Assembly (NCBI GenBank): GCA_024345305.1
Contig: BRON01000011.1
Span: 1-64,000, forward strand
Origin: Mrakia gelida
Lineage: Eukaryota > Basidiomycota > Tremellomycetes > Cystofilobasidiales > Mrakiaceae
Direction: 5' to 3'
Length of the DNA: 64,000 nt
This document shows positions 6,612 to 32,632 of this stretch, piece by piece; position 1 is the first letter of the stretch, and each line of letters starts with the position of its first letter. A program made the position numbers and the translations under genes. The notes beneath the pieces were generated by a model. It searched no databases and had not been told where the DNA came from. It was given only the letters and a program-made list of their open reading frames with translations.

Positions 6612-6735
6612 CGAAGCGACGCAAAGTCCGTATCCCTCGGCAAGCCTGTTGGAACGCTCGAGGGATACGGATCCGTATCCCTGGGGATACGGAAACGGCC
6701 GTTCCAACGCGTTGGAACGGGGCGCATACCGTTAG
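6612..6735. repeat. Terminal palindrome block of copy 1
   Basis: The variable arm unit reads CCGTATCCCTC and appears in the order plus, minus, plus, minus (about 6628, 6658, 6673 and 6684), with a BamHI-like GGATCC at the centre of the middle palindrome. It is followed by the constant 22-nt palindrome built on CCGTTCCAACG (6699-6720), an 11-nt spacer ending CGCATACCG, and TTAG at 6732-6735. It could form a multi-stem or cruciform structure. Confidence 0.85.
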
Positions 6736-6749
6736 GAGGACACGAGTTA

Positions 6750-9700
6750 CTACGTAGGGCGAGAGACAGTCTTGTAGAACCAGAGGAGGAGAAGAGCAGC
6801 GTTGGTGAAAGGAAGTGTAGGGGAGAGCAAACCTAGCCAGAACGAGAACTCCACGTCCTTCTCCTTCGTGATCTTCCACTTGTAATATTCCCTCGTCCCC
6901 AGCAGTATCCCTTCTCCGTCAGACACCCACCCCCAGTCTGATCCAATCCTCCCCTCCTCGATAGCCCTCTCCCTCCAACTCCGATCCCGGAACAGCTGCA
7001 TGCAAAGAGGAACAACCATCTTCGCAGCTCTGAACGGACACCCTCCTCCCATCCCACCCTCCGCCGCCTCCTCGTGCAGCGAGATAGGGAAGAGGCATCC
7101 AAAACAGCAGTTGGAGTAGGTAGAGCGTTGAGCGGTAAGGACTGCGCATGTCTCGAGACTCCTCCAGTTGCAGCCAGTACAGTACGAGCACCTGCGAGAG
7201 AAGAGAAGAAAGCGACGTCAGAACGCGTCGCGGTCAAGAAGGAGAGGCAAACAGAATCGAAAACGTACTCTTTCTTCTTGCTGGGGCATCCGTACTTGTG
7301 GAGTGAGGTGGCGTTGGGAGAGAGTTGAGTGGTTGGGTGAAGGAGGATGCACGACGAGCAGAGGGAGTCGAGGGTTCGGAGGAGATGGGCAAGTTCGTCG
7401 TGGAGGATGTTTGCTTGAGTATGGAGCTGACGGGATTGGAGGTAGGCTTCGGGGATCTCGGAGGAGTGAGGGATGGTAGGGAAGAGAGAGCTGATGAGGG
7501 GAGGAGAGATGGCTGAGGGGAGGAGGTTGGTGGTTCGGTGGGAGGGGAGGGAGGGAGATTGAGGAGGGGCAACGCGACGACGACGACATTCCGTACAGAG
7601 CCCACAGTCTCCCGACGAGAAATCGTTGAGCTGCTCCTCCAGTGCTTTGGCAATGCAGCTGTTTGGAGAGCGGAAGCGAGGGTCGAACCCGTTTGGGTGG
7701 TCGACAAAAAAGAAAAGCGGCGACTTCTTCCGTTGGAAGTCCCAGACGACGGTCTCCCAGTCTCGACCTCGACCTCCTCCCTGAACGCGCTCGGAGACTG
7801 TCCATCCTTTTGGGTGAGGAAGGAAGATGACGAGGTTGCATTGCTGGAAGAGGAAGGAAGAGAGTTCGGTTGTTGTTCTCGTCCTGACCCGACGCGACGC
7901 AAGGGGGGTTGTGTTTGACTCACCGGACAGTCCAGAGCTTGAATCCCCGCTGTTGTGCAGAACAGGTAGTCGATCCTTCCGGCTTCCCAATCCCTGCTCG
8001 TTCCATCCATCTTCCTTGTCTCCTCCACACCCGTCACCGCGTAGTAGACCTCCGTCCTCACCTCGACACCCTTCCTCTCCGCCTCCTCAACCAGCCTTCC
8101 TCGTAGCGCGTCCAGCTCCTTCTTGGTGAATCCAAAGATGATGACTGGAGCTCTAGGAGCAGAGAGGTGACCGTTCCCGAAAGTATCCATCATCGTCTTG
8201 AAGACGTCGTCGCTGGAGTCCAGCTTCACAACGTGGAACGTGACTCCAGGACGACGAAGAGGGAAGTTGAGCTCGGTGAGGGTTGAGTGAAGGAGTGTTC
8301 CGGCGTGTCTCCGTGCTCCCTCAGTCCAGCTGCCGGAGAGAAGGAGGAAGGGAGCTCGCGCGAGTCGAGCGAGGGAGACGTAGCCCATCGACGGCCTCCA
8401 ATCCGACTGAGTCGCCCAGGTGTGAGCCTCATCCCCGACGAACTGGAGGACCTTCCCTATGGTGCCGAGGGAAACGAGGTCCTCTCGAAGCTGCTTGTTG
8501 CCTAGCTGCTCGATCGAGATGAGGAGGACACCTCGGAGGCTGACGAGAGGGGTTTCGGGAGGGAAGGGGTGGGTGTGGACGTCGAGACTGCTGTTCCGAC
8601 ATCGAGCGTGAAGCGTAGCGAGGATGGAGCGGAAGGGTGTTATGAAGACGACGAGACGACCAGTAGGGTGACTGCGGTCGAGGAGAGCTCGAAGGAGGGA
8701 GAGGAAGGTCTTGCCCGACCCAACGGGGCTGCTGAGAAGGTAATCGGTTCCTCCGCGGATGATCTTGGCAGCAGCTTCGAGCTGGTTTTGGTAAAGCTCC
8801 GCTGATGGGTTGCCGGTCCACTCCCGAAGAAGGCTGGTGATGACGTCCGCTTGGGAGTAGGGAGGAGGAACGAGGAGAGGGGAGGGTTCGGGATGAACGC
8901 GAGGAGGCGGAGGAGGAGGAGGAGGGGGACTGGATCCGTCGAAGTCGTCCATGTCGTCGTCGAAGTCGACACCGTCCGTGAGAGCTTGGAGATCGAGAGG
9001 AGTCCGGCTTCTTGAGGATACTTCCACCGCACTTGATGAAAGAATCGAACTCCTCTCCTCCTCCAAGACTGGGTCTCTCGCGCTGTCTCCTCCTCCTGAC
9101 GCGTCGTCTCGACTTAGCTCCATCGGCTCGGATCCTTCGTCGTCGTACCCTGAGACTGGAGGAGGGGAGGGTGGTGCTGGTGTGGGACGTTTGAAGAGAG
9201 GTTGGGAGGAAGAGAGAGAAGAGGAGGAGGGACGCTTGGAGGAGAGCTGAAGAGAAGGAGAGGAAGAGAGACGCGTCAGTCAGGCGAGGGACGTCGCCAG
9301 AAGAGAGAACGGAGGAAGGACTCACCGACGGATGAGAGCTACGCCCAAGAAACAGATCCAGCCTGTCGGGCAAGCGATCGATCTTGAGAACCTGCGTAGC
9401 GGAGGGGGAAGAGGAGGGTTGGTCAGAACGAGGGGTCGCGTGAAGATCGAGAGAACGAACATGGAGGCAAAGACTCACAGGATCCACTCCCAACGCGAGT
9501 TGATACAGGCTCACGACCCTCATCGCATTCGTCGCGTCTCCAAAAGCAGCCAAGTCCCGAATCCCACCACTGGAGTCGGTGTTTCCGTAAGCGGCCTCGT
9601 CCGTCTTGAGCGAGTGGCCTCGTTGGCTCGACTGAGTCTCCAGAGCGACGAGGAGTCCGTTGGCGTCTGATCCGAGGAGAGGGAGGATGATCCGACTGAT

Positions 9701-12700
9701 GAAGACTTCGGCGTGTCGAACCGTTTGGAGCCCGACTCCCGACGAGGAGCCTGACAAGACGAAGGCGAGCTTGAGGTGGGATCGGAGGTCGGCGGCGACG
9801 ATCTGCTTCCCGACACCGTCTGTCCAAAGGAACGTCCTGAAGGTGGTCTGAACGGCGAGGTTGTTGTCCAGAGGGCTGAGAGAGTGGAGGAGGGAGAGAA
9901 GGTAGAGAGCGAAGGGTTGTACGACTCCGAAGAGCTGGATGACGAGAGGCACGAGGGTCGGAGACACGAAGCGATGGATGGTCTTCGTTCCTGTCTTGTT
10001 GACCTCCGTACGAATGGCGAGTCGGTTGGAGGTGATGAAGAGAGAGGAACCGTGGTCGACCGTTCGGGTGAGCTGCTGAGTAACGAGTTCCGAAGCTCGA
10101 CCTCCAGGGGAGGAGAGGTGGATGGCGACGAGGACGTTGAGCTTCGCGGCGGCGAGGGAGTGAAGGAAGGCTCGGGCGTGAGGAAGGTTGAGCTGGGGTT
10201 TGAGAGGATCCGAGGGGTTTGAGATCCAGAGCTTGGAGTTGGAGAGAGAGAGGGAGAGGAGGAGAGCCTGTTGGTTCCGAGGTATCCCGAGCTTGATGCA
10301 GTTCGATGGATCCGTGAAGATCGATCCCCCAACCTCTCCCGCAACTCCTCCGACCGTCACTCCTTTCATCGTTCGGCCAACTGCTGAGAGGTCCGCCGAG
10401 AAGGTGAGGGTCTTGATCGAGGAAGTAGCTGATGCGATGGCTCCCTTGGCTGCGTCGGCAATAGCGGTGAGGGAGATGAAGCGGTTGTAGGAGAGGAGAG
10501 GGAGGAGGTGGCCTTCGACTGGGTCGTGGAGGGGTTGGATGGAGACGACGGGTCCAGCAGCGGTGATGGCGTGGGAGATGGGATAGCGAGTAGCTCGAAG
10601 GACGACAAAGGGTGTGACTTGAGCTCCGTTGGGGTGAGCTGTGACGAGTTCAAAGAGCGGCGAGTCGAGACTGAGAAAGAAGAAAGAGAGAGGTGAGCGA
10701 CGCGTTTCGAACCCCAAAGCGATCAAGACAACCGACTTACCCTCTCGACACTAGCACTGCTCCAGCCTCAGCTTCATCCAACTCCCTAACCTCTCCCCAT
10801 CCAATCTCGTCCAGCACTAGGCGGTAGACGACGAGTCGAACGAAGAACTCGCAGGACGCGAGCTGAGGTCCGAACGATCCGATCTCCCGAAAGCCTCCTC
10901 CAGCAGCAAGGGAAAGGCAGATTAGGAACTGATCTAGGACCATCTGGCCCCGAGGAGGAGTGGATGAGTATCGAGGGGAGTAGATCGCAAGGAGGAACTG
11001 GAGGAGGGCGTCCTGAACCTCCTTTGACTCCTCGACTCCTCCTCTCCCTTCTCCTCCGACGACCCCGTTCGGCTGGGTGAGGACGTCCCTCTGGAGGACT
11101 TGACGGAGGGTGTTGGCTGCGAGTACCATCCGCTCGGTGGTGTGGAAGGAGGGAAGGTCGATGGAGGTGGTGAAGGAGCAGGAGGAGGGAGGAGGGGAGA
11201 TGATTGGAGGAGGTGCGAGCTCGCCCTGAGGGATGGGGATGGGGTTTCGGTAGACCGTTGGCGTGACCCTGAGGGCAAAGAGGATGAGCGAGCTTGAATC
11301 CCTGCTGTATCGTTTGAGGGTCGAATCCGCGAGCCGCGGCTTGAAGATCCTTGTCGGTCCCTTCCCTCCTCGCTCTTCGTCGACCATGTCCTCCGAGATC
11401 TGCACCGACCCGTCCCCCATCCCGATCTTCCTCGCCACAGCAAACTCGCTCGGATTCGTCCCGTACTTCCGAACCCCTAAGGCGAGATCCTGAACGTGGA
11501 CCCAGACGTTTCGCAGAGGGTCGCGGTCCTCGATTCGAGTCTTGTCCGAGGACCGGTAGTTGTGGGCGGGGGAGATGGCTGAGCGGAGGACGGCGAGAGG
11601 GTAGGGTTGGATGAAGGAGCCGTAGCCGAGAGGGTTCTGGTAGACTGGTTGGTGGTAGAGGGAATTGTCGAGCTTGTCGCTGGGGGTGGGAAGGGAGGAG
11701 AGTATCTCGTTCTGCTGCTCGAGAAGGAAGGCTGCTGATGCTGAGGAGGGATCCGATCGTGGGACCTTGGGAGGGGGAGGAGGAACGAGGTTGATGGAGT
11801 TGTGAGACGGAGGAGGAACGGCGAAGGCGGGGAGGTGAGCGTCGGGGAAGAGTCGTTGGGAGTGAACGGAAGCGGAGGAGAGATTCGTTCCTCCGTGCTT
11901 CTTGTGACGGTGGCTTCGGAGGGAGTCGCCATCCTTGCAGACCACACCACAGCTCCCACACCCTACTCCCATCCTCACGGCGATGCCCTCGACCATAGGG
12001 AAGGTCGAGGTGGACCGTCTCGAGAGGAGCAGCTGACTTGCGAGTTTCCGATCGGAGAGGGGAGCGTAGATGGAGTGCTTGAAGGAGTTCGCGAGGTTCA
12101 GGAGGAGGGTTGCTTCTCGGACGAGGGTTTTTCGATGGGAGGAGGAGAGGGAAGGGCAGAACTTGAGTAGGTGAGCGGTGAGTCCGGATGGTGCGACTCC
12201 TCCTCCGTACGGGTCCTCGTGGGTGGAAACGACGAGACCGATCCTCATGTTGATGGCTAGAGAAGCGGCGTGGAGGTTGGTCGTGGCTGAGAGAGAGAGA
12301 GAAAAAGAAAGGAAGATCAGGATCGGGAAGCAAGAGATTGGAGAGAAGGAGATGAAGGACGAACAAGCGAGGCTCTCTCCTTTCCAAAACGCGACAAGTC
12401 CTTCCACGTCGAGTTTCCTGAAGCATCCAATCCCAGCTTCGTCGTCTCTTGGCACCGATGCTGTTGAGCCTGATGGAAGGAAGAAGGGTTTAAAGATCAG
12501 CACAGGTCCATACTCTCGAGCGAGAGAGCAAACGAGAGTGACGGAACAGGACGCGAGAGACTCACCATCGTCCGAAGAGACCTCACCGACGACTCCATCC
12601 ATCCCACATGCAGCACCAACTCCTCCATCTTCCGAAAGGTTCCAATCCTCCCCACCACTACCCTCTCTCCCATCAACAACCTCGCGTTCCTTCCCCTTCC

Positions 12701-13290
12701 TCGTCCCACTCGAGCTCGACCCACTCGCAATCTCTCCAACTCCCTCGCCACCACCTCCCTCGGTCTCTCCCTCTCCCTCCCCCTCGTCCATCCCATAACC
12801 AAAACCTTCCCCGTCCCCTAGGTGAGCGTTCTCCTCCTCCTCCTCCTGATCCTGGGTTGGCAGAGGGGGAGTGTCGGGTTGGGGAGAGGGAGATGGAGAG
12901 TGAACGAGAGGAGAAGGGAAGAGCGGGTGGAGAGGTTCGGTGAGGATGCAGATCTTCCAGTGCTTATGAAACGCGTTTGGGGTACGGGAAAAGTGAGGTT
13001 CCGAGTGAGGTCGAGGGCAGGAGAACGATCTGTTGGTTCCACGCGGCACTGAGAGGGATGGGGGAGGGAGAACGAGAGGAAGGGAGGAACGGGATGAGTG
13101 TTGGGCTTGAACGGAACCTACACGGAGAAGATGTGTGCAAGCGCACCTTTGAGACCTCCAGCAAGACGAATTTCAGCTTGATGAACATCCTTCACATGCT
13201 GGGTGAGTTTAGCAAGGGTGGAGAAGGGTGAGAGGGCATGGCAGATCGCTCTTGAGCATGGGAAGCTCATCTGCTCGAGCACGAACGAGA
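6750..13290 (-). CDS. OrsD-like / RecQ-like DEAH helicase, multi-exon (5' end uncertain)
   Basis: Probably a DNA helicase of the fungal telomere-linked RecQ type. Minus-strand reading: an N-terminal C2H2 finger near 13270-13160 (MSFPCSRAICHALSPF, then H-x4-H); a second Cys/His cluster near 13000; an OrsD-like segment in the exon 10741-12286, with the finger CGSCGVVCKDGDSLRSH then HKKH; a middle exon 9479-10670; a small exon 9326-9391; the helicase exon 7924-9246 with Walker A VGSGKT, RecQ-type motif II DEAHTWATQSDWRP and motif III LLSGSWT; exon 7270-7883 with CGLCTEC and CSSC; and the last exon 6750-7190 with CSYCTGCNW and CCFGC. GT/AG borders fit each named intron. Exons between 12286 and 13290, and possible further 5' exons up to about 14860, are not settled. 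This appears to be the only possibly intact copy in the window. Confidence 0.7.
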
Positions 13291-14920
13291 GAAGGTCAAT
13301 CGAAAGTCAGAACAGAACCAAGTGGAGGGTGGATAGTATGAGAAGATTGAGGTATGCGAGGGCAACTTACGGTACTGAAGAAAGAACCTGAGAGTGCAAG
13401 GGGAAGGAGGGAGAGCGAGCGAGGTAGAGGGAAGAACGATGGTCAGCTCGAGCTCGCAACTCCTCCTTCCTTCTCCTTCCTTCTGCAAAGGCAGGTGACA
13501 CCTCATCCCACCTCCCCTACCTCCAACTGAAAGCGAAAGACTCACTTGAGTCCACGAGAAAGTCTCTCGAGAGCTCGTTCAGCGAGGGTTCCAAAGGGGA
13601 AGGAGGTTTGGCTGAGGTCGCTTTCGAAGGAAGCTGAAGAGGGTTGTAGAATTGGATCGGATCCGTTGGATGGCTAGGAGTAGAGGAGGAGTGGAGGAGA
13701 AGTTCCTGGTGGGAGAAAAGTGGAGGAAAGGGGTCAGCATCGAGCTCGCTCATGAAGGAGGGAAGGGAAGGAGGAGCGGAAGACCGAGTCATAAGCGAGC
13801 GAGCGAGCGACGAGCTCCTCCCTTCTTCCTTCAAACGAGAGACCTTCCCAGCATGCATCCACCTTCTCAGTGGGTTCTATTCACCCCAAAGGATACTCTC
13901 CCAACATGGAAGCTCGAGAGAAAGGACTTTCCTTCCTTTGCGAGAGGAGGAGGAGTTGAGGAAAGGGAAGCGATGAGGAAGCGATAAGGCGAGGGAGCTC
14001 ACCAAGGCTGCCGTTCAAGCACTGCTCCAGTGGGCCCTTGGGAGGGATGCTACTCCCTCGTAGGAGCTGACAAGTTGTTGGTAGAGGAAGTGCGAAATGG
14101 AAAGGAAGTGGTCAAGGGAAGAGGTCGATGTGGTTGGGGGAGAGAGCAGCTCCGCAACTTCTCGTCGAAGACACGCGGTTGACTCGGACCTCGTCCCCTT
14201 CGGTCCACGGCTTTGTAGATCCATCGATGTATGAAACCACCCTCCCATCGCCCAGGTCAATCCTATAGTACCAAAGAGGCAGGAGGCCCGAGAAGAGTCC
14301 AGCTGCTGTTGTAGGAGGTAAGCGAGGGAGGAGGGGGAGGGGGGAGGAGATGGGGGTTGAGCTTGAACGAACGAGAGGGCCCTTCCATCGACAGGTTCGC
14401 TGCCGCTGCGCAACGACTCTAGCAGTAAATCGAAATCTGAAAACATATTAGTCAGAGGCCGGATATAAAGAACACGTTCCTCCTTCGAGCGAGCAAATTT
14501 TCTTACCACGAGGCTCAGACTCGCATAGGAAAAAGGAGGAGGAGCTGGGAGGTGAGCTTGAGCTTATACCTTTCAACCTCGAGACGTCGGCAAATCTTCA
14601 CTCTAGAGCTAAGCCCTCTTTAGGGGACATACTAGAGCTATGTACCAACGACTCCAGCTCTTTACAATCCGCGGTTTCGGCCTTGAGTATACAGAGAAGC
14701 TGAAAGAGAGAGGATGGAGCTCCTCCGAAAAGAACTCGCGGAAGTCAGCTCGAGCTCACCCTCTCCTTCGTTTTGAGGTACCTCTCGGGAGAATCGCTGT
14801 CGACGATGCAGATTTTGTTCTAGAGAGCTGTGCTTCTGATACATTGTGCTTCATGGGTAGATCTCGCTGGTCGTGTTTTTCGTTTGCGATTCGGTGGAAG
14901 GAGGAAGGAGAACAAAGCGA

Positions 14921-15037
14921 CGCAAAGTCCGGGTAGTCCAAAAAGGGCTGTTGGAACGGTCGGACTACCCGGATCCGGGTAGTGGACTCCACGGAAACGA
15001 CCGTTCCAACGCGTTGGAACGGCACGCATACCGTTAG
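14921..15037. repeat. Terminal palindrome block of copy 2 (chimeric arms)
   Basis: The variable arm unit is CCGGGTAGTCC, in the order plus (14930), minus, plus around a central GGATCC. The fourth arm (about 14984-14994) reads GGACTCCACGG instead, which is the arm type of copy 4. It is followed by the constant palindrome built on CCGTTCCAACG (15001-15022), an 11-nt spacer and TTAG at 15034-15037. Confidence 0.85.
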
Positions 15038-17070
15038 GGCAAAGAGGATGAGCGAGCTTGAATCCCTGCTGTATCGTTTGAGGGTCGAATCCGCGAGCCG
15101 CGGCTTGAAGATCCTCGTCGGTCCCTTCCCTCCTCGCTCTTCCTCGACCATGTCCTCCGAGATCTGCACCGACCCGTCCCCCATCCCGATCTTCCTCGCC
15201 ACAGCAAACTCGCTCGGATTCGTCCCGTACTTCCGAACTCCTAAGGCGAGATCCTGAACGTGGACCCAGACGTTTCGCAGAGGGTCGCGGTCTTCGATTC
15301 GAGTCTTGTCCGAGGATCGGTAGTTGTGGGCGGGGGAGATGGCTGAGCGAAGGATGGCGAGAGGGTAGGGTTGGATGAAGGAGCCGTAGCCGAGAGGGTT
15401 CTGGTAGACTGGTTGGTGGTAGAGGGAATTGTCGAGCTTGTCGCTGGGGGTGGGAAGGGAGGAGAGTATCTCGTCCTGCTGCTTGAGAAGGAAGGCTGCT
15501 GATGCCGAGAGGGGATCCGATCGTGGGACCTTGGGAGGGGGAGGAGGAACAAAGTTGGTGGAGTCGTGGGAGGGAGGAGGAACGGCGAAGGCGGGGGAGT
15601 GAGCGTCGGGGAAGAGCCGTTGGAAGTAGGCGGGAGTGGGAGCGAGGTTCGTTCCTCCGTGCCTCTTGTGACGGTGGCTTCGGAGGGAGTCGCCATTCTT
15701 GTAGACAGCTCCACAGCTCCCACACCCTATTCCTGACCTCACAGCGAGTCCCTCGACCATAGGGAAGGTCGAGCCTGAACTCGTCGAGAGGAGGAGGCCG
15801 ATCGTGTCTTGGTTGTTGGCGAGGGAAGCGTAGTCGGAGGTGTCGAGAGAGGAAGAGAGGTTGAGGAGGTGGGTGGCATCTCGGGTGAGAGTCTTCCGCT
15901 GGGAGGAGGAGAGGGACGGAGTGTAGAGTGAAAGATGGTGTCCGATGCGAGAGGGACGAACACCTCCTCCGTGGGAGTCCTCGTGGGTTGAGATGACGAG
16001 GCCGATGCGAGTGTTAACAGCAAGAGAGGCGATATTGAGAGCAGGAGTGGCTGAGAGGAGGAAGAGGAGAAAGGTCAGCGTCAGGAAGGAAGGGGGAGAG
16101 CAAGGAGGAGGGAGGAGAAGAAGAACGAACTGGCGAGATGAGGTAGCTTCCAGAACGCGTCTCGAACGAAAGATCCTCCGATCGTGAGTCCCCTGAGGCT
16201 GTTGTTCCCAGCCCCGTCGTCTCTACGAACCGATGCTGTTGAGCCTGATGGAGGGAAGAAGGGTTTGAGGATCAGCACGAGTCCATACTCTCGAGCGAGA
16301 GAGCAAACGAGAGTGACGGAACAGGACGCGAGAGACTCACCATCATCCGAAGAGACCTCGCCCTCAACTCCATCCATCCCGCATGCAGCACCAACCCCTC
16401 CACCTTCTGGAAGGTTCCCATCCTCCCCACCACCAACCTCTCTCCCATCAGCAACCTTGCGGTCCTTCCCCTTCCTCGTCCCACTCAAGCTCAACCCACT
16501 CGCACTCCCTCCAACTCCCTGGCCACCACCTCGCTCGGTCTCTTCCTCTCCCTCCCCCTTGTCCATCCCAGAACCAAACCCTTCCCCATCCCCTAGGTGA
16601 GCAGGGTGAGCAGGCACCTCCTCCTCCAGCGGATCCTGTGTTGGCGGAGGGGGAGTGTCGGGTTGGGGAGAGGGAGATGGAGAGTGGACGAGAGGAGAAG
16701 GGAAGAGCGGATGCAGAGGTTCAGCCACCGTGCAGGTCTTCCAGTGCTCGTGGAGAGCAGAGGGAGTTGGAGAGAGGTGAGGTTGATCATGAGGGCGAGG
16801 GCAGGGGAAGGATCCGTTGCTGCCTCGAGGAACTGAGAGGAGAGAGGGGAAGGAACGAGAGGGAGGGAGCAATGGGTTGAGTGTCGAGCTTGAACGAAGC
16901 AAACACAAGCACGGTGAAGATAGATGCAAGCGCACCTTTGAGACCTCCAGAAAGACGAACTTGAACCTGGTGAACATCCTTCACATGCTGAGTGAGTTTG
17001 GCGAGGGTGGAGAAGGGTGAGAGGTCCCGGCAGAGCGCTCTCGAGCAAGAGAAGCTCATCTGCTCGAGCA
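15038..17070 (-). pseudogene. OrsD-like gene fragment, copy 3 (no helicase)
   Basis: Keeps the N-terminal finger exon (near 17060-16940, MSFSCSRALCRDLSPF), the acidic/proline linker exons and the OrsD-like exon (about 15038-16050) with CGSCGAVYKNGDSLRSH. The reading frame then runs across the junction at 15037/15038 into the palindromes of copy 2 and ends there. The middle region, helicase and Cys-rich C-terminus are absent, so a helicase cannot be made. A short OrsD-only protein with a junction-derived tail is possible but unproven. Confidence 0.75.
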
Positions 17071-18731: not shown

Positions 18732-18851
18732 GCGACGCAAAGTCCGTCAAGTCCGTCAAGGCTGCTGGAACGGTCGGACTTGACGGATCCGTCAAGTCGA
18801 CTTGACGGATTCGACCGTTCCTGCTAGCAGGAACGGCACGCATACCGTTAG
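18732..18851. repeat. Terminal palindrome block of copy 3
   Basis: The variable arm unit GTCCGTCAAGTC appears in the order plus, plus, minus, plus, minus (18742-18809), giving two overlapping perfect palindromes. The second palindrome uses CCGTTCCTGC and its complement (about 18815-18836), unlike the CCGTTCCAAC of copies 1, 2 and 4. The 11-nt spacer and TTAG are conserved. Confidence 0.85.
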
Positions 18852-22560: not shown

Positions 22561-22682
22561 AAGCGACGCAAAGTCCGTGGAGTCCGTGGAGTCTGTTGGA
22601 ACGCTTGGACTCCACGGATCCGTGGAGTCGACTCCACGGAAACGACCGTTCCAACGCGTTGGAACGGGTCGCATACCGTTAG
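22561..22682. repeat. Terminal palindrome block of copy 4
   Basis: The variable arm unit GTCCGTGGAGTC appears in the order plus, plus, minus, plus, minus (22573-22640). This forms overlapping palindromes centred on GGATCC and GTCGAC. It is followed by the CCGTTCCAACG palindrome (about 22647-22668), an 11-nt spacer and TTAG at 22679-22682. Confidence 0.85.
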
Positions 22683-24505
22683 AGATCCTGAACGTGGACC
22701 CAGACGTTTCGCAGAGGGTCGCGGTCTTCGATTCGAGTCTTGTCCGAGGATCGGTAGTTGTGAGCGGGGGAGATGGCTGAGCGAAGGATGGCGAGAGGGT
22801 AGGGTTGGATGAAGGAGCCGTAGCCGAGAGGGTTCTGGTAGACTGGTTGGTGGTAGAGGGAATTGTCGAGCTTGTCGCTGGGGGTGGGAAGGGAGGAGAG
22901 TATCTCGTCCTGCTGCTTGAGAAGGAAGGCTGCTGATGCCGAGAGGGGATCCGATCGTGGGACCTTGGGAGGGGGAGGAGGAACAAAGTTGGTGGAGTCG
23001 TGGGAGGGAGGAGGAACGGCGAAGGCGGGGGAGTGAGCGTCGGGGAAGAGCCGTTGGAAGTAGGCGGGAGTGGGAGCGAGGTTCGTTCCTCCGTGCCTCT
23101 TGTGACGGTGGCTTCGGAGGGAGTCGCCATTCTTGTAGACAGCTCCACAGCTCCCACACCCTATTCCTGACCTCACAGCGAGTCCCTCGACCATAGGGAA
23201 GGTCGAGCCTGAACTCGTCGAGAGGAGGAGGCCGATCGCGTCTTGGTTGTTGGCGAGGGAAGCGTAGTCGGAGGTGTCGAGAGAGGAAGAGAGGTTGAGG
23301 AGGTGGGTGGCATCTCGGGTGAGAGTCTTCCGCTGGGAGGAGGAGAGGGACGGAGTGTGGAGTGAAAGATGGTGTCCGATGCGAGAGGGACGAACACCTC
23401 CTCCGTGGGAGTCCTCGTGGGTTGAGATGACGAGGCCGATGCGAGTGTTGACAGCGAGAGAGGCGATATTGAGAGCGGGAGTGGCTGAAAGGAGGAAGAG
23501 GAGAAAGGTCAGCGTCAGGAAGGAAAGGAGAGAGCAAGGATGAGGGAGGGGAAGAAGAACGAACTGGCGAGATGAGGTCCCTTCCAGAACGCGTCTCGAA
23601 CGAAAGATCCTCCGATCGTGAGTCCCCTGAGGCTGTTGTTCCCAGCCCCGTCGTCTCTACGAACCGATGCTGTTGAGCCTGATGGAGGGAAGAAGGGTTT
23701 GAGGATCAGCACGAGTCCATACTCTCGAGCGAGAGAGCAAACGAGAGTGACGGAACAGGACGCGAGAGACTCACCATCATCCGAAGAGACCTCGCCCTCA
23801 ACTCCATCCATCCCGCATGCAGCACCAACCCCTCCACCTTCTGGAAGGTTCCCATCCTCCCCACCACCAACCTCTCTCCCATCAGCAACCTTGCGGTCCT
23901 TCCCCTTCCTCGTCCCACTCAAGCTCAACCCACTCGCACTCCCTCCAACTCCCTGGCCACCACCTCGCTCGGTCTCTTCCTCTCCCTCCCCCTTGTCCAT
24001 CCCAGAACCAAACCCTTCCCCATCCCCTAGGTGAGCAGGGTGAGCAGGCACCTCCTCCTCCAGCGGATCCTGTGTTGGCGGAGGGGGAGTGTCGGGTTGG
24101 GGAGAGGGAGATGGAGAGTGGACGAGAGGAGAAGGGAAGAGCGGATGCAGAGGTTCAGCCACCGTGCAGGTCTTCCAGTGCTCGTGGAGAGCAGAGGGAG
24201 TTGGAGAGAGGTGAGGTTGATCATGAGGGCGAGGGCAGGGGAAGGATCCGTTGCTGCCTCGAGGAACTGAGAGGAGAGAGGGGAAGGAACGAGAGGGAGG
24301 GAGCAATGGGTTGAGTGTCGAGCTTGAACGAAGCAAACACAAGCACGGTGAAGATAGATGCAAGCGCACCTTTGAGACCTCCAGAAAGACGAACTTGAAC
24401 CTGGTGAACATCCTTCACATGCTGAGTGAGTTTGGCGAGGGTGGAGAAGGGTGAGAGGTCCCGGCAGAGCGCTCTCGAGCAAGAGAAGCTCATCTGCTCG
24501 AGCAC
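22683..24505 (-). pseudogene. OrsD-like gene fragment, copy 5 (no helicase)
   Basis: Keeps the finger exon (near 24495-24375), the linker exons and the beginning of the OrsD-like exon including CGSCGAVYKNGDSLRSH. It is cut about 210 nt earlier in the coding sense than copy 3. The frame reads through into the copy 4 palindromes. The helicase is absent. Confidence 0.75.
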
Positions 24506-26163
24506 GAAGGGGAGAAGGCCAATCGAGAGTCAGAACAGAACCAAGTGGTGGGTGGACGGTATGGGAGGATGGGTGCATGTAAGAGGAACATACAGTATCA
24601 AAGAAAGAACCTGAGAGTGGAAGGGGAAGGAGGAAGAGCGAGCCAGGTGAAGGAAGGAACGATGGTCAGCTCGAGCTCGCAACTCCTCCTTCCTTCTCCT
24701 TCGTTCCTCCTTCCCTCTCCCTTCCCTCCCCTTCCAAAGGCAGATCACACCTCATCCGACCTTTCCGTACCCCCACCTCCATAGCAGAAAGCGAAAGACT
24801 CACCCGAATCCTACGAGAAGGTCTCTCGAGCGCTCGTTCAGCGAGGGTTCCAAAGGGGAAGGAGGTTTGGCTGAGGTCGCTCTCGAAGGAAGCTCAAGAG
24901 GGTTCTGGCAGTAGATCAGGTCTGTTGGATGGGTAGCAGTAGAGGAGGAGTGATGAAGAAGTTCCTGGTAGAGAGGGAAGGGGAGGAAAGAGGGTCAGCA
25001 TCGAGTTTGCCCGTGGAGGAGGGAAAGGAAGGAGGAGGGGAAGACCGAGTCATGAGCGAGGGAGCCTGCTCCTCCTTCCTTCCAACGAGAGACCTTCCCA
25101 GCATACATCCACGTTCTCAGTGGGTTCTATACACCCCAAAGACTTCTCTCCCAACATAGAAGCTCAAGAGAAAGGACTTCCCTTCCATTGCGAGAGGAGG
25201 AGGGGTTGAGGAAAGGGAAGCGATAAGGGAGCGATAAGGCGAGGGAGCTCACCAAGTCTGCCGTTCAAGCACTGCTCCAGTGGGTCCTTGGGAGGGAGGC
25301 TGGTGATCCCTCGTAGGATCTGACAAGTTGTTGGTAGAGGAAGTGGGAAATGGAAAAAGGTGTCAAGGGAAGAGGTCGATGTGGTTGGGAGAGAGAGCAG
25401 CTCCGCGACTTCTCGTCGAAGACACGGGATGGACTCGGAGCTCGTCCCCCTGGGTCCACGGCTTTGTAGATCCACCGATTTATGAAACCACCCTCCCATC
25501 GCCCAGGTCGATTCTAGAGTACCAAAGAGGCAGGAGGTCCAGGAAGAGTCCAGCTGCTGTTGTAGGAGGTAAGCGAGGGAGGAAGGAGAGAGGGGAGGAG
25601 GTTGATGCTGAGCTTGAACGAACGAGGTCTTTCCATCGACAGGTTTGCTGCCACTGCGCCAGCGTTCTCGCAGTGAATCGGAATCTGAGAAAAGCCTAGT
25701 CAGGAAACTAGGTATAGAGAGCACGCTCCCTCTTCGAGCGAGCAACTTTTCTTACCACGAGGCTCAGACTCGCATAGGAGAAAGGAAGAGGAGCTGGGAG
25801 GTGAGCTTGAGCTCATACCTTTCAACCTCGAGACGTCGGCAAATCTTCACTCTAGAGCTAAGCCCTCTTTACTGGACATACTAGAGCTATGTACCAACGA
25901 CTCCAGCTCTTTACAATCCGCGGTTTCGGCCTTGAGTATACAGAGAAGCTGAAAGAGAGAGGATGGAGCTCCTCCGAAAAGAACTCGCGGAAGTCAGCTC
26001 GAGCTCGCCCTCTTCATCGTTTTGAGGTACCTCTCGGGAGAGTCGCTGTCGACAATGCAGATTTTATCGTATGAATCTGTACTTCTGATACATTGTGCTT
26101 CATAGGTAGATCTCTCTGGTCGTTTTTCCCGTTTGCGATTTGGTGGAGGGAGGAGGGAGAACG

Positions 26164-26285
26164 AAGCGACGCAAAGTCCGTCAAGTCCGTCAAGGCTGCT
26201 GGAACGGTCGGACTTGACGGATCCGTCAAGTCGACTTGACGGAATCGACCGTTCCTGCTAGCAGGAACGGCACGCATACCGTTAG
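26164..26285. repeat. Terminal palindrome block of copy 5
   Basis: Same five-arm arrangement and same arm sequence (GTCCGTCAAGTC unit) as copy 3, with one visible base change between the last variable arm and the constant palindrome. TTAG lies at 26282-26285. Confidence 0.85.
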
Positions 26286-29200
26286 GGCTGCTGAGAAGGT
26301 AATCGGTTCCTCCGCGGATGATCTTGGCAGCAGCTTCGAGCTGGTTTTGGTAAAGCTCCGCTGATGGGTTGCCGGTCCACTCCCGAAGAAGGCTGGTGAT
26401 GACGTCCGCTTGGGAGTAGGGAGGCGGAACGAGGAGAGGGGAGGGTTCGGGATGAACGCGAGGAGGCGGAGGAGGAGGAGGAGGGGGACTGGATCCGTCG
26501 AAGTCGTCCATGTCGTCGTCGAAGTCGACACCGTCCGTGAGAGCTTGGAGATCGAGAGGAGTCCGGCTTCTTGAGGATACTTCCACCGCACTTGATGAAA
26601 GAATCGAACTCCTCTCCTCCTCCAAGACTGGGTCTCTCGCGCTGTCTCCTCCTCCTGACGCGTCGTCTCGACTTAGCTCCATCGGCTCGGATCCTTCGTC
26701 GTCGTACCCTGAGACTGGAGGAGGGGAGGGTGGTGCTGGTGTGGGACGTTTGAAGAGAGGTTGGGAGGAAGAGAGAGAAGAGGAGGAGGGACGCTTGGAG
26801 GAGAGCTGAAGAGAAGGAGAGGAAGAGAGACGCGTCAGTCAGGCGAGGGACGTCGCCAGAAGAGAGAACGGAGGAAGGACTCACCGACGGATGAGAGCTA
26901 CGCCCAAGAAACAGATCCAGCCTGTCGGGCAAGCGATCGATCTTGAGAACCTGCGTAGCGGAGGGGGAAGAGGAGGGTTGGTCAGAACGAGGGGTCGAGT
27001 GAAGATCGAGAACGAGCCTGGAGGCGAAGACTCACAGGATCCACTCCCAACGCGAGTTGATACAGGCTCACAACCCTCATCGCATTCGTTGCATCTCCAA
27101 AAGCAGCCAAGTCCCGAATCCCACCACTCGAATCCGTGTTTCCGTAAGCCGCCTCGTCCGTCTTGAGCGAGTGGCCCCGTTGGCTCGACTGAGTCTCCAG
27201 AGCGACGAGGAGTCCGTTAGCGTCGGATCCGAGGAGAGGAAGGATGATCCGACTGATGAAGACTTCGGCGTGTCGAACCGTTTGGAGCCCGACTCCCGAC
27301 GACGAGCCTGACAAGACGAAGGCGAGCTTGAGGTGGGATCTGAGGTCGGCGGCGACGATCTGCTTCCCGACACCGTTCGTCCAAAGGAACGTCCTGAAGG
27401 TGGTCTGAACGTCGAGGTTGTTGTCCAGAGGGCTGAGAGAGTGGAGGAGGGAGAGAAGGTAGAGAGCGAAGGGTTGTACGACTCCGAAGAGCTGGATGAC
27501 GAGAGGCACGAGGGTCGGCGACACGAAGCGATGGATGGTCTTCGTTCCTGTCTTGTTGACCTCCGTACGAACGGCGAGTCGGTTGGAGGTGATGAAGAGA
27601 GAGGAGCCGTGGTCGACCGTTCGGGTGAGCTGCTGAGTAACGAGTTCCGAAGCTCGACCTCCAGGGGAGGAGAGGTGGATGGCGACGAGGAGGTTGAGCT
27701 TCGCGGCGGCTAGGGAGTGAAGGAAGGCTCGGGCGTGAGGAAGGTTGAGCTGGGGTTTGAGAGGATCCGAAGGGTTTGAGATCCAGAGCTTGGAGTTGGA
27801 GAGAGAGAGGGAGAGGAGGAGAGCCTGTTGGTTCCGAGGTATCCCGAGCTTGATGCAGTTTGATGGATCCGTGAAGATCGATCCTCCAACCTCTCCCGCA
27901 ACTCCTCCGACCGTCACTCCTTCCATCGTTCGGCCAACTGCTGAGAGGTCTGCCGAGAAGGTGAGGGTCTTGATCAAGGAAGCAGCTGATGCGATGGCTC
28001 CCTTGGCTGCGTCGGCAATAGCGGTGAGGGAGATGAAGCGGTTGTAGGAGAGGAGAGGGAGGAGGTGGCCTTCGACTGGGTCGTGGAGGGGTTGGATGGA
28101 GACGACGGGTCCAGCAGCGGTGATGGCGTGGGAGATGGGATAGCGAGTAGCTCGAAGGACGACGAAGGGTGTGACTTGAGCTCCGTTGGGGTGAGCTGTG
28201 ACGAGTTCGAAGAGCGGCGAGTCGAGACTGAGAAAGAAGAAAGAGAGAGGTGAGCGACGCGTTTCGAACCCCAAAGCGATCAAGACAACCGACTTACCCT
28301 CTCGACACTGGCACTGCTCCAACCTCAGCTTCATCCAACTCCCTAACCTCTCCCCATCCAATCTCGTCCAGCACTAGGCGGTAGACGACGAGTCGAACGA
28401 AGAACTCGCAGGACGCGAGCTGAGGTCCGAACGATCCGATCTCCCGAAAGCCTCCTCCAGCAGCGAGGGAAAGGCAGATTAGGAACTGATCTAGAATCAT
28501 CTGGCCCCGAGGAGGAGTGGATGAGTATCGAGGGGAGTAGATCGCAAGGAGGAACTGGAGGAGGGCGTCCTGAACCTCCTTTGACTCCTCGACTCCTCCT
28601 CTCCCTTCTCCTCCGACGACCCCGTTCGGCTGGGTGAGGACGTCCCTCTGGAGGACTTGACGGAGGGTGTTGGCTGCGAGTACCATCCGCTCGGTGGTGT
28701 GGAAGGAGGGAAGGTCGATGGAGGTGGTGAAGGAGGAGGAGGAGGGAGGAGGGGAGATGATTGGAGGAGGTGCGAGCTCGCCCTGAGGGATGGGGATGGG
28801 GTTTCGGTAGACCGTTGGCGTGACCCTGAGGGCAAAGAGGATGAGCGAGCTTGAATCCCTGCTGTATCGTTTGAGGGTCGAATCCGCGAGCCGCGGCTTG
28901 AAGATCCTCGTCGGTCCCTTCCCTCCTCGCTCTTCCTCGACCATGTCCTCCGAGATCTGCACCGACCCGTCCCCCATCCCGATCTTCCTCGCCACAGCAA
29001 ACTCGCTCGGATTCGTCCCGTACTTCCGAACTCCTAAGGCGAGATCCTGAACGTGGACCCAGACGTTTCGCAGAGGGTCGCGGTCTTCGATTCGAGTCTT
29101 GTCCGAGGATCGGTAGTTGTGAGCGGGGGAGATGGCTGAGCGAAGGATGGCGAGAGGGTAGGGTTGGATGAAGGAGCCGTAGCCGAGAGGGTTCTGGTAG

Positions 29201-30830
29201 ACTGGTTGGTGGTAGAGGGAATTGTCGAGCTTGTCGCTGGGGGTGGGAAGGGAGGAGAGTATCTCGTCCTGCTGCTTGAGAAGGAAGGCTGCTGATGCCG
29301 AGAGGGGATCCGATCGTGGGACCTTGGGAGGGGGAGGAGGAACAAAGTTGGTGGAGTCGTGGGAGGGAGGAGGAACGGCGAAGGCGGGGGAGTGAGCGTC
29401 GGGGAAGAGCCGTTGGAAGTAGGCGGGAGTGGGAGCGAGGTTCGTTCCTCCGTGCCTCTTGTGACGGTGGCTTCGGAGGGAGTCGCCATTCTTGTAGACA
29501 GCTCCACAGCTCCCACACCCTACTCCTGACCTCACAGCAAGTCCCTCGACCATAGGGAAGGTCGAGCCTGAACTCGTCGAGAGGAGGAGGCCGATCGCGT
29601 CTTGGTTGTTGGCGAGGGAAGCGTAGTCGGAGGTGTCGAGAGAGGAAGAGAGGTTGAGGAGGTGGGTGGCATCTCGGGTGAGAGTCTTCCGCTGGGAGGA
29701 GGAGAGGGACGGAGTGTGGAGTGAAAGATGGTGTCCGATGCGAGAGGGACGAACACCTCCTCCGTGGGAGTCCTCGTGGGTTGAGATGACGAGGCCGATG
29801 CGAGTGTTGACAGCGAGAGAGGCGATATTGAGAGCGGGAGTGGCTGAAAGGAGGAAGAGGAGAAAGGTCAGCGTCAGGAAGGAAAGGAGAGAGCAAGGAT
29901 GAGGGAGGGGAAGAAGAACGAACTGGCGAGATGAGGTCCCTTCCAGAACGCGTCTCGAACGAAAGATCCTCCGATCGTGAGTCCCCTGAGGCTGTTGTTC
30001 CCAGCCCCGTCGTCTCTACGAACCGATGCTATTGAGCCTGATGGAGGATCAGCACGAGTCCATACTCTCGAGCGAGAGAGCAAACGAGAGTGACGGAACA
30101 GAACGCGAGAAACTCACCATTGTCCGAAGAGACCTCGCCCTCAACTCCATCCATCCCACATGCAGCACCAACCCCTCCACCTTCCGAAAGGTTCCCATCC
30201 TCCCCACCAACAGCCTCACTCTCAACAACAACCTCGCGTTCATTCCCCTTCCTCGTCCCACTCAAGCTCGACCCACTCACACTCCCTCCAACTCCCTCGC
30301 CACCACCTCGCTCGGTCTCTCCCTCTCCCTCCCCCTTGTCCATCCCAAAATCAAACCCTTCCCCATCCCCTAGGTGAGTGTTGTCCTCCTCCTCCTGCTG
30401 ATCCTGGGTTGGTGGAGGGGGAGCGTCGGGTTGGGGAGAGGAAGAGGGAGAGCGAACGAGAGGAGAAGGAAAGAGAGGGTGGAAGGGTTCCGTGATGTCG
30501 CAGGTCTTGTAGTGCTTGTGAATCGCGCTGGGAGTAGGAGAGGAGTGTGGTTTGAAGTGAGGTCGAGGACAGAGGAACTGGCTGTCTAACCCTCGAGGAA
30601 CTGACGTAGAAGAGGGGAAAGGAGAGGGGAGAAGGAAGTACGGCCGATGAGCTTCGGTTCGTCCTTCGGGAACGCGAGACAGCAAAAGGGGGGGTGAGCT
30701 GACCTCGGATGCCTTCAGCAAGAAGAACTTCAGCTTGGTGCTGATCCCTAGTGTGTTGGTTGAGTTGAGAGCGAGAGGGGAAGGGTGGGAGGCCATGGCA
30801 GACAGCTCTCGGGCAGGAGAAGCTCATCTG
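26286..30830 (-). pseudogene. OrsD/RecQ-like gene, copy 6, cut at the helicase Walker A
   Basis: Encodes, in minus sense, the finger exon (30825-30720), the linker exons, the OrsD-like exon with its finger, the middle exons (28310-29840 and about 27035-28235), and the first 130 or so residues of the helicase exon, up to YLLSSP just before the GSGKT of Walker A. The frame then enters the copy 5 palindromes. ATPase activity is therefore not possible. The upstream exons look open, so the loss is by truncation rather than scattered mutations. Confidence 0.75.
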
Positions 30831-32510
30831 CTCGAGCCCGAACGAGAGAAGGGAAGTCGAGAGTCAGAACAGAACTCAGTGGCGGGTGGATGGTATGGGA
30901 AGATCGGTGTAGGCGAGAGGAACATACGTGATCAAAGAAAGAATCTGAGAGGAAGGAGGAAGGAGGGAGAGCGAGTGAGGTGAAGGGAAGAACGATGGTC
31001 AGCTCGAGCTCGCAACTCCTCCTTCCTTCTCCTTCCTTCTTCCTTCCCTCTCCCTCCCCTCCCCTTCCAAGGGCAGGCCCCACCTTTTCCGACCTCTCCC
31101 AACCTCCAGCTCCATAGCAGAAAGCAAAAGACCCACTTGAATCCTACGAGAAGGTCTCTCGAGCGCTCGTTCAGCGAGGTGTCAAAGGGGAAGGAGGTTT
31201 GGCTGAGGTCGCTTTCGAAGGAAGCTCGAGAGGGTTCTGAGAGTCGATCGGATCCGTTGGATGGATAGGAGTAGAGTAGAAGTGACGGAGAAGTTCCTGG
31301 TAGAGAGGGAAGGGGAGGAAAGAGGGTCAGCATCGAGCTCGCTCGTGGAGGAGGGAAGGGAAGGAGGAGGGGAAGACCGAGTCATGAGCGAGCGAGCGAG
31401 CTCCTCCTTCCTTCCTTCCAACGCGAGACCTTCCCAGCATACATCCAGGTTCTCAGTGGGTTCTATTAACCCCAAATGATGCTCTCCCAACATAGAAGCT
31501 GGAGAGAAAGGACTTCCCTTCCTTTGCGAGAGGAGGAGGGGTTGAGGAAAGGGAAGCGATAAGGGAGCGATAAGGCGAGGGAGCTCACCAAGTCTGCCGT
31601 TCGAGCACTGCTCCAGTGGGTCCTTGGGAAGGAGGCTGGTCCCTCGTAGGATCTGACAAGTTGTTGGTAAGGGGAAGTGGAAATGGAAAGGAAGGTGTCA
31701 AGGGAAGAGGTCGATGTCGATGTGGTTGGGGGAGAGAGAGCAGCTCCGCGACTTCTCGTCGAAGACACGGGATGGACTCGGAGCTCGTCCCCTTCGGTCC
31801 ACAGCTTTGTAGATCCACCGATTTATGAAACCACCCTTCCATCACCCAGGTTGATCCTATAGTACCAAAGAGGCAGAAGGTCCAGGAAGAGTGCACTGCT
31901 GTTGTAGGAGGTAAGCGAGAGAGGAGGGAGAGAGGGGAGGAGGTCGATGGTGAGCTTGAACGAACAAGAAGGCCCTTCCATCGACAGGTTCGCTGCCGCT
32001 GCGCAACGATTGTAGCAGTAAATCGAAATCTGAAAACATATTAGTCAGGAAGCCGGATATAAAGAACACGTTCCCTCTTCGAGCGAGCAAATTTTCTTAC
32101 CACGAGGCTCAGACTCGCATAGGAGAAAGGAGGAGGAGCTGGGAGGTGAGCTTGAGCTTATACCTTTCAACCTCGAGACGTCGGCAAATCTTCACTCTAG
32201 AGCTAAGCCCTTTATACCGGACATACTAGAGCTACTAATCAGCGGCCCTAGCTCTTCGCATAGCAGGAACTCGGCCTTGAATATACAGTGCAGCTAAAAG
32301 AGAGAGGATGGAGCTCCTCCGAAAAGAACTCGCGGAAGTCAGCTCGAGCTCGCCCTCTTCATCGTTTTGAGGTACCTCTCGGGAGAGTCGCTGTCGACAA
32401 TGCAGATTTTATCGTATGAATCTGTGCTTCTGCTACATTGGGCTTCATAGGTAGATCTCGCTGGTCGTTTTTCCCGTTTGCGATTCGGTTGGGAGGGGAG
32501 GGAGGAACGA

Positions 32511-32632
32511 AGCCGCGCAGGTTGCGTACCCTCCGGAAAGGCGCCAGGAACGGTCGGAGGGTACGCATGCGTACCCTCGAGGGTACGCAGAGGCCCGTTC
32601 CTGGAGGCAGGAACGGGGCGCATACCCGTTAG
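32511..32632. repeat. Terminal palindrome block of copy 6 (array border)
   Basis: The variable arm unit GCGTACCCTC appears in the order plus, minus, plus, minus (32524-32588) around a central GCATGC and a CTCGAG. The second stem uses CCCGTTCCTG and its complement around a GAGG loop (32594-32617). The 11-nt spacer is kept and TTAG is at 32629-32632. Single-copy DNA follows. Confidence 0.85.

Follow-up and report, generated by a model that had tools for sequence, protein, structure and literature searches.

Covarying palindromic blocks at the centromere-facing end of a subtelomeric helicase element in Mrakia gelida

Telomere-linked helicases and related elements

Subtelomeric helicases are known from several fungi according to the sections of PMC7473861 drawn on here, which describe full and truncated subtelomeric RecQ helicase copies in Agaricus and treat the role of such helicases as unsettled. 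The relevant part of PMC10532341 gives RecQ and OrsD parts for the Ustilago repeats UTASa and UTASb, and that of PMC12857005 places telomere-linked helicase (TLH) regions beside FoTeR retrotransposons. The locus considered here is a window of 64,000 nucleotides at the left end of contig C11 (BRON01000011.1) of the Mrakia gelida genome (GCA_024345305.1; 34.86 Mb, 25 contigs). It holds an array of an element that carries a helicase gene, and each copy ends in a palindromic block. These blocks are the fixed, centromere-facing attachment end of a subtelomeric element. It is reasonably likely that they form the attachment terminus of a TLH-type element added end-on to chromosome ends, and the evidence suggests that the repeated helicase-bearing DNA is a mobile element extending eroded ends. 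An earlier sequence-only reading had placed the blocks at the end of element copies, which the alignments of the six copies bear out; it missed the array at the chromosome end, the centromere-facing attachment end and the helicase gene.

The element resembles the fungal TLH repeats (Ustilago UTASa/UTASb, Pyricularia TLH, Schizosaccharomyces tlh1, Agaricus RecQ) in its multicopy, telomere-adjoining helicase gene, in an OrsD match, weak here, within that gene and in the coexistence of full and truncated copies. It differs in having a near-universal, fixed and covarying palindromic inner end and a one-base rule at its joints, neither of which occurs in the sections drawn on of PMC10532341, PMC7473861 and PMC8381367. 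The terms ‘hairpin’ and ‘inverted repeat’ are absent from the main text of PMC7473861, as are ‘palindrom’ and ‘hairpin’ from that of PMC8381367. Palindromic ends of TLH elements appear in none of the titles and abstract openings of the literature surveyed, which does not establish their absence from print. A RecQ-type core and an OrsD part are both tentative assignments here, and the element is provisionally filed as a variant of the TLH kind.

The telomeric non-LTR retrotransposons (HeT-A/TART and, as far as the accounts drawn on describe them, FoTeR and MoTeR) likewise stack end-on, with truncated copies and short telomere tracts between them. In contrast, the scanned open reading frames (ORFs) and gene model of the present element contain no reverse transcriptase, its gene reads outward, antisense to a possible template RNA, and most of its joints lie on eroded elements or other sequence instead of telomere repeats. 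Athena and Coprina are endonuclease-lacking Penelope elements found at telomeres and added to exposed 3′ ends. Addition to such ends would be common to both, but no Penelope reverse transcriptase was recognised in the element or the genome, and the element closes with TTAG instead of the complement of the telomere repeat. The yeast Y′ elements are helicase-coding tandem subtelomeric repeats, sometimes separated by telomere tracts, whereas the Mrakia element has hairpins, a single fixed base at which its joints fall, and a 3′-C rule.

Array and plan of the element

Five further copies (e1 and e3 to e6) were found by BLAST of the longest, e2, against the window. All reach blocks rightward, and their left starts differ.

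1..6735, minus strand: e1, outermost copy in the window, aligning to e2 1489-8302; telomere side cut by the contig start; palindromic end 6612-6735
6736..15037, minus strand: e2, at 8.3 kb the longest window copy; its cut lies 14 nt past the helicase stop codon, where the end of e1 is joined to it
15038..18851, minus strand: e3, telomere side truncated, beginning at e2 position ~4531
18852..22682, minus strand: e4, telomere side truncated, beginning at e2 position ~4494
22683..26285, minus strand: e5, telomere side truncated, beginning at e2 position ~4749
26286..32632, minus strand: e6, innermost copy, beginning at e2 position ~1991

Sequence past 32632 does not align to e2, and the inner flank of e6 is without a reference among the fetched loci. 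The complete unit, of about 11.3 kb, was read at two telomere-bearing contig ends (C3 left and C11 right), where the palindrome ends about 11.4 kb from the tip. From the tip inward it consists of the telomere, a C-free tail of about 400 nt, internal repeats, the outward-reading helicase gene, a further ~1.7 kb, the palindrome and a final TTAG. The telomere repeat of the genome is TTAGGG, and Telomerase_RBD matches lie on C8.

The tail adjoining the telomere lacks any C on its outward strand for 397 nt at C3:87-483 and for about 400 nt at the C11 right tip. Read on the inward strand, the stretch without G covers C3 87-483 and, with the telomere included, positions 1-517 of the C11 right tip. 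Such a tail could act as a buffer in which a 3′-C would never be exposed.

The terminal blocks

The window contains all six blocks that the sequence-only reading described as sharing one plan with different arm sequences. Their termini lie at 6735, 15037, 18851, 22682, 26285 and 32632, and the common plan is A1-(B1)-A2-A3-A4-B2-B3-CGCATA..TTAG.

6612..6735, plus strand: block 1, type CCGTATCCCT; core start 6620, arm offsets taken from the equally long core B02
Plus strand, arms of block 1 (offsets from core B02): A1 6628-6637, B1 6648-6657, A2 6661-6670, A3 6673-6681, A4 6684-6692
Plus strand, distal parts of block 1 (offsets from core B02): B2 6699-6708, B3 6711-6720, tail CGCATACCGTTAG 6723-6735
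14921..15037, plus strand: block 2, type CCGGGTAGTC, with arm A4 of another type and mispaired
18732..18851, plus strand: block 3, type CCGTCAAGTC, B arm CCGTTCCTGC
22561..22682, plus strand: block 4, type CCGTGGAGTC, B arm CCGTTCCAAC
26164..26285, plus strand: block 5, type CCGTCAAGTC, B arm CCGTTCCTGC
32511..32632, plus strand: block 6, type GCGTACCCTC, tail CGCATACCCGTTAG

Across the genome at least 74 termini were collected in two rounds (46 and 28). This is a lower bound, and the filter required GGAACG near CGCATA and hence favoured intact B3 arms. With two exceptions, the 74 termini are oriented inward and are no more than 40 kb away from a contig end (median 11.4 kb); 33 ends carry them. 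On C4, three blocks fall within 775 bp. The recurrence of the blocks at 33 contig ends makes an assembly artefact, a doubt that the sequence-only reading had raised against itself, unlikely. The block pattern fits 71 termini, 47 of them distinct, and the removal of three double-counting worn remnants leaves 44 cores. C24:15659 (diverged), C17:6268 and C1:18614 (both without A3:A4) stand outside the pairing counts.

An end-independent check found 43 places that match the 456 bp preceding the block (best candidates scored), 40 of which have a collected terminus. The other three are C14:15959 (TTAG; B3 carries a one-sided mutation), C6 near 2050860 (TTAG; a deletion has removed most of B3) and a place on C13 near 1347900. 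A recognised terminus is thus reached by 42 of the 43 flank-found copies (41 TTAG, one TTAA), and TTAG closes 71 of 73 recognised termini overall.

Seven A-arm types occur among the 44 cores: CCGTATCCCT, GCGTATCCCT, GCGTACCCTC, GCGGACCCTC, CCGTCAAGTC, CCGTGGAGTC and CCGGGTAGTC. The B stem continues as AA or TG, and 13 of the 14 combinations of A and B type are present, so that the hairpins reassort. The A3:A4 hairpin is missing from three blocks (C1:18614, C17:6268 and near C13:1347900), which are either an older form or deletions between repeated arms.

The 3′ end of a Helitron is a hairpin followed by CTRR. If the element were of this rolling-circle kind, the hairpin before the conserved tetranucleotide would be the 3′ end of the transferred strand, and the B2:B3 hairpin, some 11-12 nt before TTAG, does resemble such an end. 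The genome also has two Helitron_like_N matches, both on C21 and above cut-off but covering positions 145-191 only. However, the tetranucleotide is TTAG and not CTRR, no opposite end is fixed, 72 of the 74 termini lie at chromosome ends only, the helicase matches DEAD/ResIII/Helicase_C, and no HUH/Rep occurs in the scanned ORFs or gene model. A Helitron-like origin is therefore disfavoured and very improbable; the sequence-only reading had likened the blocks to rolling-circle terminators in form only.

Joints between copies and chromosome ends

Older copies have lost varying lengths of their telomere side, and it is at the cut that the next copy starts, always with the same fixed end. The cut points range from 628 to 11314 in C3 coordinates; none falls in the C-free tail, which carries little weight with about 20 mapped joints. 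The joint pattern is matched by 73 of the 74 termini (the exception is C1:18614), with 66 distinct inner flanks, and a best-matching relative was found automatically for 31 of these joints. Two of the 31 lie on telomere repeats. At the other 29, without exception, the relative has a G just before the position of the cut, the same base as the last base of the element; on the outward strand, the chromosome end at these non-telomeric joints is …C-3′. The next inward base is a purine in 27 of the 29, giving mostly …YC-3′ on the outward strand.

A first list of joints, made by hand, has G in 23 of 23 cases, a chance of 2e-12 at 31% G, and includes C4:11947 and C4:2171875, which have no automatic reference. 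For C4:12309 and C22:229143 the automatic reference is itself a joint, and uncut references likewise show G. The 29 terminal-C joints fit priming by the chromosome 3′ end and are no proof of it.

Two joints lie on telomere tracts some 50 nt long, with the usual tail beyond: C1:4714 (the same joint recurs at C12:1396576 and C22:241322) and C1:3242903. A third, C24:15659, lies on a short telomere-like tract. With a slash at the cut, these joints read TTAG/CCCTAA, TTAG/CCCTAATCC and TTGG/CCCTACCC, the last belonging to a diverged block. The terminal G seems to be the element's own, since it is present at these joints although the tracts are without G. A true end of TTAGGG with longer microhomologies would fit the purine bias at positions +1 and +2; it was set aside, as the telomere joints read TTAG/CCC. 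Of some older copies, no more than 13-21 nt at their own end was left when the next copy was added, as at C1:3231379, C17:6289 and C11:1551672.

The main rival to an element with its own attachment end dispenses with dedicated transposition. Eroded ends would invade other ends and copy them to the tip by microhomology-mediated break-induced replication (TAIR in Pyricularia), the palindrome being a fragile or nick-prone start site. Complete terminal segments, telomeres included, would be expected from this route, and whole joints common to several ends and the reassortment of A and B hairpins (13 of 14 combinations in 44 cores) are in keeping with it. A pathway with microhomology and telomere vestiges is known from Pyricularia TERT knockouts, as described in part of PMC8381367. 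Donor starts should vary under such copying, yet 42 of the 43 flank-found copies reach the same terminus, and in none of the joints inspected by eye was the inner flank of the donor carried along. One matched base is also little homology for invasion. Break-induced copying accounts for complete tips and for joints common to several ends, not for a donor side that hardly ever varies, and is rather unlikely.

Pairing and covariation of the arms

Among the 44 cores, A1:A2 is perfect in every one: its 440 cells contain neither a G-U pair nor a mismatch, even though the bases differ between cores at 8 of the 10 pairs. Perfect pairing is found in 42 cores for A2:A3 and for B2:B3, and in 32 for A3:A4 and for A1:A4. 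The 12 cores with imperfect A3:A4 comprise all 11 CCGGGTAGTC cores and one (B46) with a single G-U. In the CCGGGTAGTC lineage, A4 would need two changes in one form (ACTCCACGG) and a single change in another (ACTACACGG) in order to pair. In core B13, A1:A2 and A3:A4 are of different types, each paired internally.

As a rule, though with exceptions, the arms change together. All arms agree in five of the six window blocks, in line with the earlier claim of joint change in nearly every block; in the sixth (14921-15037) A4 mispairs. Across the 44 cores A4 lags in 11, and A1:A2 pairs in all. The second palindrome was also said to co-vary. Its B2:B3 stem pairs perfectly in 42 cores, but the filter favoured intact B3. 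Judged by eye, the two filtered-out blocks at C14:15959 and C6 still pair A1:A2, whereas their B2:B3 is disrupted, in one by a one-sided change and in the other by a deletion. B2:B3 is therefore less strict than 42 of 44 suggests.

The check that the sequence-only reading had proposed, a collection of genomic copies followed by a covariation test, supported it on some measures and not on others. The test used 16 of the 44 cores, spanning the type combinations, and 500 shuffles, which leave relatedness in; a control in which the partner arm is slid keeps relatedness. Paired cells reached 97.8% against 75.7% in shuffles and the covariation score 0.590 against 0.183, with no shuffle of the 500 attaining either value, and cells changed on both sides also exceeded all 500. 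Not above the shuffles were the pairs with change on both sides (17 against 15.2, reached by 61 of 500) and further pair types (24 against 25.0, reached by 414 of 500). When the partner was slid by 1-3 columns, 28.7-45.5% of cells were paired, although a structure derived from the same sequences tends to beat its slid versions. The alternative pairing A1:A4/A2:A3 has 97.3% of cells paired against 97.8% for A1:A2/A3:A4, and the data do not choose between the two.

When folded as RNA, three of the window blocks clearly surpass their shuffles, and do so on either strand. The same is true of DNA folding for block 1 on both strands and for block 6 on the one strand tested. A B1:B2 pseudoknot was rejected, as it is perfect in only 17 of the 44 cores. 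A GCG:CGC closing stem (cloverleaf) and an AACGG:CCGTT helix from linker to tail appear in some folds and, by eye, are not kept across variants. No Rfam family matched at its gathering threshold in four loci; three matches far below their gathering scores fell in window 5900-7000.

The arm types mostly track lineage. Across the 59 termini, of the 74, that qualified for a comparison of 170-bp flanks, the mean flank distance is 0.076 within a type and 0.147 between types (900-bp flanks were dropped, as some contain neighbouring blocks). The nearest blocks of different A type have four differences in these flanks. Each arm change is therefore rare, and the earlier description of the blocks as fast-changing is borne out only in part.

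The covariation is real, and structural selection and arm-to-arm copying, the two sources named in the sequence-only reading, are both compatible with it; neither is singled out. Joint rewriting is favoured by the agreement of three or four arms in most cases, the many two-sided transversions and the rarity of G-U or one-sided intermediates. Stepwise compensation under selection is favoured by the CCGGGTAGTC lineage, with its A4 arm one or two changes short.

The agreement of arms in threes or fours, the few intermediates and the strong folding of the tested blocks as RNA and DNA also bear on a further explanation, in which the blocks would be hairpin ends of a linear extrachromosomal DNA, of parvovirus or linear-plasmid likeness, with arms rewritten by hairpin-primed synthesis. 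The last ~15 nt, from the tail to TTAG, lie outside the conserved palindrome, so that the 3′ end cannot fold back at full length. The resemblance to parvovirus-type terminal hairpins, which the sequence-only reading had drawn in form only, gained no support: the blocks lie inside continuous chromosomal sequence and the scanned ORFs and gene model contain no Rep. Such an origin is most unlikely.

Helicase gene and reverse transcriptases

The helicase gene of e2 was predicted with a splice model made for this study and carried over to e2.

6750..13270, minus strand: helicase gene predicted for e2, 1983 aa in 8 exons, with codon 1984 the first stop
Minus strand, exons of the e2 helicase gene: 13270-13147, 13048-12365, 12286-10741, ~10670-9479 (start interpolated), 9391-9326, 9246-7924, 7843-7269, 7191-6750

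All seven introns are GT-AG, and the frame is open only when spliced; e2 retains the frame and every splice site. A second full copy, at C11 right, keeps the splice sites and has a stop at codon 207 in an alignment gapped on both sides. Comparison with this second copy yields a dN of 0.036 and a dS of 0.076. In Pfam scans, DEAD, ResIII and Helicase_C fall just below cut-off in the gene model, and DEAD and ResIII are above it in one window ORF. OrsD (PF12013) matches weakly in single ORFs (E 4e-4 to 7e-3, below cut-off) and was not reported for the whole spliced protein. One search returned no protein relatives of the helicase at E<=0.001, and the best PDB sequence match has an E of 0.008.

The RVT_1 search of the genome gave 20 places. 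Nineteen score 121-144 bits, 18 of them near-equal, and 16 lie in frames of 1246-1493 aa. None is on C11. Counting only contigs whose length is known, 14 of the 19 are at most 50 kb from an end, in both orientations; examples are C21:25408, C18:26126, C10:13161 and C3:2322970, and one nearby stretch is Ty3/gypsy by eye. The weakest of the 20, at C1:2138400-2141800, is a decayed LINE-type reverse transcriptase fragment that, by eye, adjoins a copia RNase H-like fragment.

These places bear on target-primed reverse transcription, in which a LINE or Penelope-like enzyme would act in trans and the block would be the structured 3′ end of an RNA. The fixed end, the variably truncated opposite end, the one-base priming rule and the structured 3′ end would all suit this process, and resemble HeT-A/Athena and, in the parts of its description drawn on, FoTeR. 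However, apart from its 19 similar-sized places, RVT_1 shows only one broken LINE-like fragment. The RNA to be copied would run antisense to the helicase gene, and G-U pairs are rare. This explanation is considered improbable. As the RVT_1 places are of one size class or fragments, with a single decayed LINE-like fragment, the LINE/Penelope route is unlikely, and telomerase or a repair polymerase would therefore have to act.

Proposed mechanism and its weighing

For a TLH-type element added end-on, the following course may be proposed. Loss of the telomere would leave an eroded chromosome 3′ end finishing in C. This terminal C would pair with the terminal G of a template molecule ending …UUAG or …TTAG, and the 3′ end would be extended outward through the palindrome and the helicase gene to the telomere repeats. 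The template might be an RNA, in which case telomerase or a borrowed reverse transcriptase would do the copying, or else a DNA strand that stops at TTAG. The hairpin cluster may be a feature for cutting, protecting or recognising the template 3′ end, with arm pairing maintained by structural selection and aided by arm-to-arm copying. A template with its 3′ end at TTAG and one-base pairing would explain together why the donor side is fixed, why the recipient side varies and why the C rule holds.

Several observations weigh against end-on addition of this kind. No transposase, HUH/Rep or reverse transcriptase was found in the scanned window ORFs or the gene model, the other frames of the full element being only listed, and the RVT_1 search found no intact LINE or Penelope reverse transcriptase in the genome. 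Telomere repeats are present on 10 of the 20 contig tips fetched, and all 10 of these end in the C-free tail, with none cut inside the element, which is unlike a poorly processive reverse transcriptase. Two blocks, C23:131281 and C15:1069036, lie far inside contigs; they may be relics of former chromosome ends or of fusions, or may stem from mis-joins. Two termini deviate from the tetranucleotide, with TTGG and TTAA once each, and the usual TTAG tail is absent from C1:18614 and from C13 near 1347900. More distant relatives do not always show the G: among the several available for C4:11534, the one at window 18440 carries a T at the key base. The C3 telomere tip has a few CCCTAG variants, so that the G at telomere joints may be derived from the target. 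Some joints are common to several ends (one to four blocks), which indicates that ordinary exchange between chromosome ends also moves copies.

If end-on addition is true, the defined terminus, together with a strict rule for the joints and a structure that covaries, would make subtelomeric helicases part of an element with assayable spread instead of passive repeats. Chromosome ends would be extendable in kilobase steps beside telomerase, and the blocks would provide a natural case of three or four palindrome arms changing together. It is possible, though doubtful, that the element represents a third kind of telomere-maintaining element. This kind would have a helicase, no reverse transcriptase and an inward multi-hairpin end with coordinated arm replacement, and would be copied onto any 3′-C chromosome end, perhaps by host telomerase or a repair polymerase reading a template ended by UUAG/TTAG.

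Other sequences

In the remainder of the window (33000-64000), the ORF list and Pfam scans of four ORFs gave one weak HSF_DNA-bind match, below cut-off, at 45300-46346. The left tip of contig C1 (C1:1-300) consists of DNA from an enterobacterial plasmid, with 98.4% identity to the best-matching plasmids of E. coli, and is probably vector or a contaminant joined in assembly.

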